From Candidatus Sulfurimonas ponti (GTDB lineage Bacteria; Campylobacterota; Campylobacteria; Campylobacterales; Sulfurimonadaceae): DNA of 34,664 nt. This document shows, in pieces, positions 10,004 to 34,213 of the stretch (positions are counted from its first letter, which is position 1; each line of letters begins with the position of its first letter). The position numbers were made by a program, and so were the translations under genes. Location of the stretch: the NCBI GenBank assembly GCA_014381585.1, contig JACNLH010000161.1:10305-44968 (forward strand), written 5' to 3'. The notes beneath the pieces were generated by a model that ran no database searches, was not told the DNA's origin, and saw only the letters and a list, made by a program, of their open reading frames with translations.

Positions 10004-10537
10004 ATGAAGCGACTTGATAAAAAAGATGCCCCTGTAAATATTACACAAACTGAAAAATTTATGAGTGAGAATGACTTTATTGTATCTAAGACTGATACAA
10101 AAGGTTATATAACATACTGCAATCAAATTTTCATAGATATGTCAGGCTATACAAAAGAAGAACTCATCGGTGCGAATCACAACCTCATAAGACATCCGGA
10201 TATGCCGGCAGTTGCTTTTAACTTAGCATGGGATTTGATTAAAAAAGGGCAAGAGTTTTTTGGATTTGTAAAAAACCTTAAAAAAGACGGTGGATATTAC
10301 TGGGTCTTTGCCTATATAACTGCTGATTATGATTCAAAAGGCACTGTCATTGGCTATTCATCTTTTAGACGTAAACCTTCACGTGTTGCAGTGGAGACTA
10401 TCGCTCCAGTTTATAAACTTTTATTAGATGCTGAAAAAAAAGGCGGGATGGAAGCTTCAGGTGAATTACTCGAAAATTTTCTAGCAGAAAACAAAACTTC
10501 ATACAATAACCTTGTTATTAATTTACAAAAAAGCTAA
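10004..10537 (+). CDS. PAS domain protein, Aer/CetB-like redox sensor
   Basis: GYITYCNQIFIDMSGYTKEELIGANHNLIRHPDMPAVAF..LWDxIKKGQEFFGFVKNLKKDGGYYWVFAYIT-type Aer/CetB PAS signature; no TM segment. Confidence 0.88.
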   Translation: MKRLDKKDAPVNITQTEKFMSENDFIVSKTDTKGYITYCNQIFIDMSGYTKEELIGANHNLIRHPDMPAVAFNLAWDLIKKGQEFFGFVKNLKKDGGYYWVFAYITADYDSKGTVIGYSSFRRKPSRVAVETIAPVYKLLLDAEKKGGMEASGELLENFLAENKTSYNNLVINLQKS

Positions 10538-25580: not shown

Positions 25581-26522
25581 ATGTTAAAATTCACCACCCA
25601 TTCCATGCTTTATATAATGAATCTTTTAGAGGAAAAACTAAAAACTTTAAAAGCAAAAGATATTATTGAATTTGAAGTTGTAAATCCAGATTGTGTTGAT
25701 TCCACCTACGCTGGAAATATCTTACAAATCAATGATATATTATATCTCTATCATGGATATAAGGCTTGGAGTGATTTGGCACATCTATTAAAATGCAGAA
25801 TGCTCACACCCTTAGTCAAAGAAGAGCATCTGGTGCTCATACGATATCAAAAACTGAGTCCAGACACAAGTTTTCATGCAAACACTGCAGACGTGGAATC
25901 AAAGTACGGTTTAAATTCTATTTTTTCTCAAATACATAAGATGGAGGAGCCCGCTTTTTTGCATTACTATAAACAAGCACTTACAAATGTGCATATAAAC
26001 AAAAGGATGAGAATTTTAAATCTTGGGGTGAATAGCGCAGATGAATTTGAGTTCATTCAAGAGTATGCTTCGAACTTTAAGAACTTAGAACTTGTAGGAG
26101 TTGATTACTGCTCTTCTGCGATTGAAAATGCAAAAGAAAAATTCTCTGATGCGAAAAACATCAGCTTTTATACGCACGATATAAACGATTTAGATGCACT
26201 TAATTTAGGACGGTTTGATTTAATCATAAGTATCGGAACACTTCAAAGTTCCAACTTAGAGTTCAATCCTCTTTTTATGTCCATAGTGCAAAAGCAGCTA
26301 AAAAAAGATGGGGCAATCATACTGGGTTTTCCAAATTGCAGATGGCTCGATGGTGAAATGATTTATGGCGCACGGGCAAAGCACTACGCATTTTCAGAAA
26401 TGTCACTTGTTTATAAAGATGCAATATTTTGTAAAAAATATCTTCAACAAAAAAAGTTTCGGGTTACAATAACGGGGAAAGATTATATATTTTTAACAGC
26501 AACTTCCATAAGAAAAGACTAA
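25581..26522 (+). CDS. Class I SAM-dependent methyltransferase
   Basis: MRILNLGVNSADEFEFIQEY...LELVGVDYCSSAIENAKEKF (motif I/post-I), GRFDLIISIGTLQSSN, LKKDGAIILGFPN. Alternative start at 25617. Confidence 0.85.
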   Translation: MLKFTTHSMLYIMNLLEEKLKTLKAKDIIEFEVVNPDCVDSTYAGNILQINDILYLYHGYKAWSDLAHLLKCRMLTPLVKEEHLVLIRYQKLSPDTSFHANTADVESKYGLNSIFSQIHKMEEPAFLHYYKQALTNVHINKRMRILNLGVNSADEFEFIQEYASNFKNLELVGVDYCSSAIENAKEKFSDAKNISFYTHDINDLDALNLGRFDLIISIGTLQSSNLEFNPLFMSIVQKQLKKDGAIILGFPNCRWLDGEMIYGARAKHYAFSEMSLVYKDAIFCKKYLQQKKFRVTITGKDYIFLTATSIRKD

Positions 26523-26550: not shown

Positions 26551-27285
26551 TTAGTTGAAAAACGGCATTTTCATACCGCCCTCTTTTTTATCGTCTTTAC
26601 CAAAAAATGGCATATTGTCCATGTTTGGCATATCTATTTTTTTACCGTCTTTTGTGTCTTTACCAAAGAAAGGCATATTGTCCATGCTTGGCATTTCAGA
26701 CACTTCAACTGTATCTTTCTTACCGATTTTGGTAGATGGCATCTCTGGCATTTTGCCATCTTTGATGGAGTCCATACTTGGCATTTCAGGCATTTTTCCA
26801 TCTTTCATGGAATCCATACTTGGCATTTTCGGCATTTTCATACCATCAGAACCGCTTCCCATACCTGGCATTTCAAATTCAGAACCGCCATCTTTTCCAA
26901 AACTTGGCATCTCCGGCATTTTTCCGTCCTTCATCGAATCCATATTTGGCATTTCGGGCATATCAGGCATCTTTGGCATTTCAGGCATCTCTGGCATTTT
27001 TATACCATCAGAACCTCCATCCATGCCTGGCATCTCCGGCATTTTCATTCCATCAGTTCCAGAACCCATACCCGGCATCTCTGGCATCTTCATACCATCA
27101 GAACCTCCACCCATGCCTGGCATTTCAGGCATTTTCATTCCGCCCGAAGACTTTTCTTTTTTGTCTTTGCCTAAGATTGGCATATCATCCATCATGTCCA
27201 TACCGGGCATCATACCTGCACTTAAAATTGTACCTGACACAAAGGCTGTGCTAAGTATAATTATTTTTATTTTTTCTTGTTTCAT
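26551..27285 (-). CDS. Exported methionine/proline-rich repeat protein
   Basis: Signal peptide MKQEKIKIIILSTAFVSGTILSAG; tandem MKMPEMPGMxxGxDG, MPSMDSMKDGK and MDNMPFFGKD units; AAGGAA upstream of the ATG. 49 of 244 residues are Met (hand count). Confidence 0.87.
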   Translation of the reverse strand: MKQEKIKIIILSTAFVSGTILSAGMMPGMDMMDDMPILGKDKKEKSSGGMKMPEMPGMGGGSDGMKMPEMPGMGSGTDGMKMPEMPGMDGGSDGIKMPEMPEMPKMPDMPEMPNMDSMKDGKMPEMPSFGKDGGSEFEMPGMGSGSDGMKMPKMPSMDSMKDGKMPEMPSMDSIKDGKMPEMPSTKIGKKDTVEVSEMPSMDNMPFFGKDTKDGKKIDMPNMDNMPFFGKDDKKEGGMKMPFFN

Positions 27286-27358
27286 CTATATTTCCTTGCT
27301 ATTTCCTATGATTGTATCTAAATAAAAAATATAACTGGCTTAACAAGATAATATTTTA

Positions 27359-29140
27359 TTATGATGCGAATCCACTTGAGAACTTGTCTTTTGCAACAAC
27401 TATCTGTTTCTGTCTCTCTTTTCTTTTGGTGTCTTTTTCTACAAATATTTTTTTACGTGTTTTAGGATCCATCTCTGTATAGTACATAACTGCAGAGTAC
27501 GTTCCTGGAGTTGGTGTAAAAACTTGTGCTTGTTCTGGATTCATTTGCAACTCATCTGTGGTGAATCTCTTTAACTCATGCATATCTTTATCTTCACATC
27601 CAGGATGCGCTGCTATAAGATAGTAGGTTAAAAACTGCTGCTTACCCTCTTCTTGGTTTAGCTTATCGTAGAGTTTTTTGAAGTCAATAAGTGTTTGTTT
27701 TCCAGGTTTCCCCATCAACTCAAGAACATGTTGTTGTGTATGTTCAGGTGCCACTTTCATTTGCCCGGATATATGATGCTTCACCATCTCTTTTAAATAC
27801 TCATAACCATGTTTTTTATCTTCAGTGATCAAGTCATACCGCACACCAGAGGCAACAAAAGCTTTTCGCACACCTTCCACCTGTCGTACTTGACGCAGTA
27901 AGTTTATGTTACGGGAATGGTCAGGTTTCATAGACTGGCAAAGATGAGAGGCATCCACACAACGTTGGTAATCACAGGTTCCGAGTTTAAGTTTTTTATT
28001 ACACTCGTACCCATACATATTTGCAGTAGGACCGCCCACATCAGAGATAATCCCTTTGTAGTCTTTATACTTATTGAAATCTTTTGCCTCTGCCAAGATA
28101 TTCTCTTCTGAACGGGTTCTGATTGTACGGCCTTGGTGAACCCCAATAGCACAGAAATTACATTCACCCCAACAGCCATGGTGTGTCATGATAGAGAATT
28201 TAATCGTCTCTAAACACTTCACCTTTCCCATTTTTGCATAAAAAGGGTGAAGTTCTCTCGTAAATGGTAAATTTGAATTTGCATCCATCTCATCTTCATT
28301 TAGATGATCACAAGGAGGATTTTGGATTAAAAACCTTGTATCGACCGGCTGACACAAACCATTTGCTGCGATTGGGTCATTGTTATCATAAAACAAATCA
28401 AACAAATCTATATATTTTTCTTTATCTTCCAAACACTCTGCATGCGATGGCATTTGATGATACTCAGGTTTTGGTTCTTTAGATATATAGCAAATTCCAC
28501 GAATATCAGTGTAGTCTCTTTTTTCAGCGATAGCTTTACTCAACTCTTCTAAAGCTGTTTCACCCATTCCATAGATTAAAACATCTGCTTTAGAATCAAA
28601 AAGAATCGGTTTTCTAAGCTTATTTGTCCAGTAATCATAATGCGTCACTCTTCTTAAACTTCCCTCAATCCCGCCTATCACAATAGGGACAGTGTTTTTG
28701 AAGTGCTGTCTAATCAGGTTGCAGTATACACTCAAAGCACGGTCTGGTCTTTTGTCATTTTTCCCACCAGGCGTGTAGTCATCTGAGTTTCTGAACTTTT
28801 TTGTCGCAGTATAGTTACTAACCATAGAATCAACACTGCCGCCACTCACACCCCAATAAAGACGAGGTTCACCCAAACGCATAATATCATTTGGAGATTT
28901 CACATCAGGTTGTCCTATCATCCCGACTCTATATCCAAGTCGCTCTAACATTCTGCCAACCATCGCCACACCTATAAAAGGAGAATCTATATAAGCATCA
29001 CCGCTTACAAGAATAACATCACAATAATCCCAACCGTGGGCATCCATATCAGCACGGGTTGTCGGTAAAAAATCTTTTTCTGTAAAAGTCACAGTGTCTT
29101 TATTTTGATTTGCTTGTTTATTTTTATTTCTTCTTGACAA
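27359..29140 (-). CDS. YgiQ family radical SAM protein
   Basis: DVILVSGDAYIDSPFIGVAMVGRMLERLGYRVGMIGQP; CWGECNFCAIGVHQGRTIRTRS (CX3CX2C); GGPTANMYG; QVFTPTPGTYSAVMYYTEMDP. Confidence 0.95.
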   Translation of the reverse strand: MSRRNKNKQANQNKDTVTFTEKDFLPTTRADMDAHGWDYCDVILVSGDAYIDSPFIGVAMVGRMLERLGYRVGMIGQPDVKSPNDIMRLGEPRLYWGVSGGSVDSMVSNYTATKKFRNSDDYTPGGKNDKRPDRALSVYCNLIRQHFKNTVPIVIGGIEGSLRRVTHYDYWTNKLRKPILFDSKADVLIYGMGETALEELSKAIAEKRDYTDIRGICYISKEPKPEYHQMPSHAECLEDKEKYIDLFDLFYDNNDPIAANGLCQPVDTRFLIQNPPCDHLNEDEMDANSNLPFTRELHPFYAKMGKVKCLETIKFSIMTHHGCWGECNFCAIGVHQGRTIRTRSEENILAEAKDFNKYKDYKGIISDVGGPTANMYGYECNKKLKLGTCDYQRCVDASHLCQSMKPDHSRNINLLRQVRQVEGVRKAFVASGVRYDLITEDKKHGYEYLKEMVKHHISGQMKVAPEHTQQHVLELMGKPGKQTLIDFKKLYDKLNQEEGKQQFLTYYLIAAHPGCEDKDMHELKRFTTDELQMNPEQAQVFTPTPGTYSAVMYYTEMDPKTRKKIFVEKDTKRKERQKQIVVAKDKFSSGFAS

Positions 29141-33088: not shown

Positions 33089-34213
33089 CTACTTTACTAT
33101 ATATATTTCATCTTTAAGAATGTGAAACTTTTTCGTGTGCTCACTTTCTTCAACTGCGAATTTTTTTGCAACTTCAGGTTTCACCAAATAATATCCAAGA
33201 ACAACATGCACTTTATCGCCCCTTTGAAGCTCTTTAGCATAAACAACTTCACGTGTTTCTTTACCTTTGATCATTGTATCTTCCACAACTTCATTTGCTA
33301 ACCATGGAGGTGTTCCTTTTGCATCTTTTCCTATAACGCGTTTAAAAACTTTTGCTTGCATCTCTTCTATCTCAGCATTTCTCTCAACACTTACACGAAG
33401 CTCTGTATGACGCATAGGGTGAAGCATCAGATCATGCGGACTTTGATTATAGATAGAGACTTTAAAACTTTTTTCTTCTTGAAGAAACTTCATATCAATA
33501 TACTGCAATAATTTTTCTTTATGCAAATTTGCTCCTGGAAAACCATGAAATGCGTATGTGCCCGTTTCTCCTTTTGTAGAAACATCACCTTTCACCTGCG
33601 GCATATGACATGTGATACAGTTGTCATCAGCATTTTCTTCACCCATGTCTGTAACACAAACATCAAGTTTTTCTTTGTTTTTTTTATGCGAATGACAGCC
33701 CATGCACACCTGTCCGTTTTTAAAGTTTTCACTGTATTTTTGATAATGTTTTTTACTTCGCAGCGGCTTCTCTCTCGTGCCGTAATAATCTTTTTTCTCA
33801 GGATGTATTTTATTTGTATTTGACATCACACCAATTTCTACAGATTCAACTCTATGACAATATGCACATAAAATCCCTTCCGTATGTGTCTCATTAGCGG
33901 CATCTGGCACGCCTTTTGTGCCTTCTCCCAACATATCTGAAATATTATCTGCTGTGGGTGTATGACACTTTGCGCATTTATACTGTTCTTTTTTTATATT
34001 TGAAGGATGCTTATCCCATACAGCTTTATGAATAGGATCTTTAAAAACTGTAGAATTTCTATGCACACTCTTCTCATATTCAGCATAGATCTCCGGATGG
34101 CACTTTTTACATGTGATATTCGGTTCAAAGCTTAATGTGCTCTCAACTTGAGCAATCAGAGAAGACACCTGTATACTTAAAAGTAATAATAAAATTTTAA
34201 TTTTCATACTCAA
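33089..34213 (-). CDS. Periplasmic pentaheme cytochrome c
   Basis: Signal peptide MSMKIKILLLLLSIQVSSLIA; five CxxCH motifs (CKKCH, CAKCH, CAYCH, CMGCH, CITCH). Confidence 0.93.
   Translation of the reverse strand: MSMKIKILLLLLSIQVSSLIAQVESTLSFEPNITCKKCHPEIYAEYEKSVHRNSTVFKDPIHKAVWDKHPSNIKKEQYKCAKCHTPTADNISDMLGEGTKGVPDAANETHTEGILCAYCHRVESVEIGVMSNTNKIHPEKKDYYGTREKPLRSKKHYQKYSENFKNGQVCMGCHSHKKNKEKLDVCVTDMGEENADDNCITCHMPQVKGDVSTKGETGTYAFHGFPGANLHKEKLLQYIDMKFLQEEKSFKVSIYNQSPHDLMLHPMRHTELRVSVERNAEIEEMQAKVFKRVIGKDAKGTPPWLANEVVEDTMIKGKETREVVYAKELQRGDKVHVVLGYYLVKPEVAKKFAVEESEHTKKFHILKDEIYIVK

Follow-up and report, generated by a model that had tools for sequence, protein, structure and literature searches.

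A stretch of 34,664 nucleotides from a draft genome of Candidatus Sulfurimonas ponti (2.14 Mb in 182 contigs; contig positions 10305–44968), hereafter the window, encodes a 244-residue repeat protein of which one-fifth is methionine, and the best reading of this protein, held tentatively at a probability of about 0.4 as judged from its sequence, is that of a periplasmic, disordered buffer for soft metals (Cu(I)/Ag(I)) with thioethers as the only ligands. The gene is real and has been retained in four species-level genomes, whereas metal binding and a physiological role are properties that we infer from composition and methionine spacing only.

The open reading frame occupies positions 26551–27285 of the minus strand, from an ATG start to a TAA stop, and is preceded by a sequence resembling a ribosome-binding site (AAGGA, 27293–27297, minus strand; by inspection only). 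It is present as a single copy in its own genome. Exact counting gives 49 methionines (20.1%), 35 glycines, 32 lysines, 28 prolines and 25 aspartates, and no cysteine, histidine, arginine, tryptophan or tyrosine at all, in agreement with the hand count of the earlier note. The other large open reading frames of the window contain on average 3.0% methionine and 11.1% of the five missing residues taken together, the most methionine-rich of them reaching 4.6% methionine; relative to this composition, the probability of finding at least 49 methionines in 244 residues is 1e-25 and that of lacking all five residues is 4e-13. Pfam contains no family that matches the protein, a hit to Cornifin being under the cut-off and compositional, and the sole NCBIfam match, to an IgA-binding model, is likewise compositional and far below its cut-off. 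A sequence search of the PDB gave no relative.

Tandem Repeats Finder detects two arrays in the gene, one with a period of 45 bp and 3.4 copies (26984–27138) and one with a period of 42 bp and 2.4 copies (26737–26838). At the protein level, all on the minus strand, the former period corresponds to three 15-residue units MKMPEMPGM(G/G/D)xG(S/T)DG at residues 50–94 (27004–27138), followed by a run MPxMPxMPxMPxMPxMPxM at residues 97–115 (26941–26997) in which every third residue is methionine. Units of the type MP(S/N)MDS(M/I)KDGK are found at residues 109–122, 151–164 and 165–178; two of these are the 14-residue copies MP(K/E)MPSMDS(M/I)KDGK at 26752–26835, and the third 14-residue unit lies at 26920–26961. 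A first unit MPSMDNMPFFGKD lies at 26656–26694 and a second, MPNMDNMPFFGKD, at 26593–26631; MDNMPFFGKD occurs twice. Tandem Repeats Finder and translation thus bear out each type of unit described in the earlier note; the order given there holds in part, since the KDGK units are present but one of them overlaps the MPx run instead of following it. The first two 15-residue units differ by seven synonymous and two replacement codons, and the closest repeat copies in general differ mostly synonymously, a pattern that selection on the peptide would produce. In pairs that include a diverged unit at residue 149, replacements outnumber synonymous changes.

The protein is probably exported. Its first 23 residues (MKQEKIKIIILSTAFVSGTILSA; 27217–27285, minus strand), read by eye, resemble a Sec-type signal peptide with LSA↓GMM at its end and putative cleavage before GMMPGM, and a signal-peptide end of the form LxA↓(G/D)M(M/F) is common to all four homologues. 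By inspection, no anchor, lipobox or transmembrane segment follows the signal peptide. AlphaFold2 produced no confident structure (mean pLDDT 49.4, no residue above 70) from an alignment of only four rows, and the chain is accordingly predicted to be disordered, a prediction that the shallow alignment makes weak evidence. Export and disorder of this kind would fit all three roles that had been proposed, a metal sponge, an oxidant sink and a structural polymer.

Searched at the protein level, 135 Sulfurimonas genomes yielded two further copies of the gene, in Sulfurimonas sp. SAG-AH-194-I05 (G117) and in the metagenome-assembled genome Faavne_M6_B13 (G127), and a profile search added a fourth carrier, G045, so that 4 of the 135 genomes, those of a few related marine Sulfurimonas, possess it. 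As an independent check, the DNA pattern for MKMPxM is clustered at the gene in precisely these four (4, 7, 7 and 10 sites), and elsewhere amounts to 0–4 dispersed, unclustered sites per genome. Profile searches in samples of 397 genomes of the class and of the phylum gave no further true relative, and none was found on the plasmids and viral contigs that were searched. Two marginal matches in the class (G136 and G192) sit in unrelated proteins, and flavobacterial matches from a first scan of the collection (L006–L008) come from short MPEMPEMP linkers within another protein of greater length. A DNA pattern for a five-fold Met-x-x-Met repeat is swamped across the class by runs of the type MPDMGGMGGM, which we take to be the C-terminal tails of GroEL. 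Runs with methionine at every third residue were also seen in G012, another Sulfurimonas (six reverse-strand matches), G335 (C91) and G430 (C139). Within the searchable genomes, with class and phylum represented by samples and many genomes incomplete, the gene is rare and limited to one clade. A literature search combining Sulfurimonas with methionine-rich yielded nothing.

What seems to have been kept among the homologues is the composition rather than the sequence order. Pairwise identities to the window protein are 43–56%, in an alignment of low-complexity sequence, and the repeat units themselves have been turned over between the species: MKMPEMPGM in the window, MDGMKMPEM in G117, MKMPFMGDMKMP in G127 and MDSDSIEMP in G045. 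The mature chains nevertheless all contain 21.6–24.4% methionine and carry a net charge of −8 to −17, they lack cysteine and tryptophan, and histidine, arginine and tyrosine each occur at most once. The Met-x-x-Met spacing was kept as well: each homologue has 22–32 methionine pairs at i,i+3 against about 10–11 expected, a two- to three-fold excess that was reached in none of 2000 residue shuffles per homologue, while pairs at i,i+1 and i,i+4 are depleted. All four also have (M/I/L/V)PF, with F, M, I or G after it, as a second motif in common. Since methionine content and spacing persisted while the repeats changed, the composition appears to be selected, and selection seems to hold composition and methionine register instead of order, although repeat structure passed on by descent could account for part of the register.

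The gene lies in a recurrent neighbourhood. A YgiQ-family radical SAM protein is encoded 73 bp upstream in the same direction (ygiQ, 27359–29140, minus strand; TIGR03904, 780.7 bits), and a convergent gene for a methyltransferase-domain protein (25581–26522, plus strand; Methyltransf_31), which served as syntenic anchor and tree marker, follows it. The examination of homologues and their surroundings that the earlier note had proposed led to four related carriers, in all of which the methionine-rich gene follows ygiQ in the same orientation, directly so in three, at distances of 73 bp in the window, 50 bp in G127 and 24 bp in G045. In G117 only, a gene for a 187-residue Crp/Fnr-type regulator (L004:2773–3336) is inserted between the two; this regulator might control the methionine-rich gene. 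The convergent methyltransferase gene is present after it in three of the four carriers. In G045 the methyltransferase gene is on a separate contig and the neighbourhood is broken, yet the methionine-rich gene still stands behind ygiQ; downstream it overlaps by one base a gene resembling mltA (murein transglycosylase A; L055:5435–6529), which suggests a single transcript there. Among the best 30 methyltransferase loci and the best 30 ygiQ loci that were read for synteny, those of non-carriers have ygiQ abutting the methyltransferase gene, S4/trpD genes or unrelated genes. The window also encodes, at 33089–34213 (minus strand), an exported C554/C7-type multihaem cytochrome that contains several CxxCH motifs.

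The earlier note had counted a lack of conservation in relatives against its proposals, and the gene proves to be conserved across four species-level genomes that make up one clade: in the methyltransferase tree the carriers form a single group with support 94/92. The ygiQ tree, which is weakly resolved, does not group them, and their grouping is not rejected (p-AU 0.21). Two relatives of the carriers, G052 and G054, have no cluster of the MKMPxM pattern, but the state of the gene in them is uncertain because ygiQ of G052 runs into a contig end and ygiQ of G054 was not found. One origin followed by vertical descent is the simplest account, without being proven.

The reading as a soft-metal buffer implies that a Sec-exported, intrinsically disordered and thioether-dense polymer would reside in the periplasm or at the cell surface, where proline would hold the methionines about three residues apart (M-P-x-M), with additional M-K-M-P pairs. 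Methionines spaced in this way could offer Cu(I) and Ag(I) numerous binding sites, each weak, exchangeable and built from thioethers only, and these ions would be buffered outside the cytoplasm of Sulfurimonas exposed to metals. Such a role would explain the M-x-x-M and M-x-M register, because the methionine-only motif MxMxxM of Ctr1 is described as selective for Cu(I)/Ag(I) (PMC9117721). A precedent for the type of molecule is SilE, a disordered periplasmic protein rich in methionine and histidine that acts as an Ag+ sponge (PMC5008109). By its record title, one carrier is from the Favne vent field, a black-smoker site (PMC10734525), which also counts in favour. The affinity would be modest, since the histidine or cysteine that known sponges combine with methionine is lacking. 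Against the metal buffer stands the absence of any copper or silver gene beside the methionine-rich gene, as the earlier note had already stated and as the open reading frames of the window and Pfam confirm. The methionine spacing could, moreover, be a by-product of repeat expansion. Copper-type E1-E2 ATPases were considered as a correlate, but carriers (3, 2, 2 and 1) and non-carriers (1–5) do not differ and there is no expansion.

A close rival of the metal buffer, somewhat less probable and by itself rather unlikely, is a sacrificial methionine sink similar to MrpX/BcrX, an exported chain that would spare other envelope proteins by being itself oxidized to the sulfoxide, and that an exported methionine sulfoxide reductase would then reduce again. 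This would account for the composition as well as a metal buffer does, and composition and location match exported methionine-rich peptides that scavenge hypochlorite together with MsrPQ (PMC8315932, PMC4623255). The window genome also encodes a fused MsrB/A above the NF004042 cut-off with a signal-peptide-like start, as does G127, but such an exported-type enzyme was found in only these two of the four carriers, the MsrA-family genes of G045 and G117 being without a visible signal peptide. Furthermore, no msrP, msrQ or other Msr gene adjoins the methionine-rich gene, the MxKDx family model TIGR02953 does not match its product, and a pure sink needs no fixed methionine spacing. MsrP was not found in the window genome, where scores were far below the cut-off. 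Its PF00174 proteins, considered as a possible MsrP partner, are SorA-like, with a SorB-like cytochrome, and of SoxC length, respectively; the SorA-like sulfite dehydrogenase and SorB-like cytochrome (L056:2603–4121) are best matches under the NCBIfam cut-offs. It could also be that a single protein serves as both metal buffer and oxidant sink.

Other explanations carry less weight. A disordered envelope chain rich in proline, glycine and methionine might bind elemental sulfur, metal sulfide or other surfaces, for which the low-complexity Pro/Gly repeats, the predicted disorder, the shared (M/I/L/V)PF motif and the sulfur-oxidizing nature of the genus can be cited; we consider such a structural or surface polymer improbable, as the chain has no means of attachment visible on inspection besides the signal peptide and resembles no known structural family, the Cornifin and IgA-binding hits being compositional. 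That the repeats of an exported peptide expanded neutrally or without function, or that the reading frame is spurious, is very unlikely: low-complexity repeats do expand readily and few genomes carry the gene, but four diverged species have all kept an open frame of 220–265 residues and, with it, the composition and spacing. Finally, the protein could be a substrate or partner of the upstream radical SAM enzyme. The persistence of the pair in the disrupted gene order of G045 speaks for this, the occurrence of ygiQ in most Sulfurimonas without the methionine-rich gene speaks against it, and we give it hardly any credence; should YgiQ modify the repeat protein, its uncharacterized family would gain a peptide substrate.

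If the protein does bind Cu(I)/Ag(I), it would represent a thioether-only periplasmic metal buffer devoid of histidine and cysteine, and a clean natural test of copper handling by methionine alone, in bacteria whose habitats bring metals and sulfide into contact with oxygen. Were it an oxidant sink instead, the strategy of MrpX would have emerged anew in another phylum, its sequence and its partner enzyme both being different. In either case, a disordered protein that conserves composition over sequence is a useful evolutionary case.

Considering known systems, the protein is best called an exported methionine-rich repeat protein. MrpX of Azospira suillum and BcrX of Brucella are likewise small, exported proteins with low-complexity repeats rich in methionine, lysine and aspartate, but theirs are MxKDx pentads instead of Met-Pro units with a spacing of three, and they are encoded in an operon with msrP/msrQ (yedYZ), whereas the present gene stands beside ygiQ and a methyltransferase gene, with neither msrPQ nor an ECF sigma factor adjacent. 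The model TIGR02953 (penta_MxKDx) gave no match at the locus in the four carriers at E<=10. SilE and PcoE share export and repeated methionine-containing motifs at regular spacing, and the predicted disorder of the present chain would resemble theirs, but they combine methionine with ten conserved histidines (PMC5008109), compared with none in the window protein and 0–1 in the mature homologues, and a sil/pco operon is absent near the gene. The protein thus falls outside both the MxKDx family, having no TIGR02953 match, and SilE/PcoE, having no histidine, although by analogy it may work like either. With Ctr1 it has thioether-only MxM and MxxM clusters in common, but Ctr1 is a non-homologous membrane transporter in which these motifs form a short tail, whereas the protein described here is soluble and consists almost wholly of the motif.
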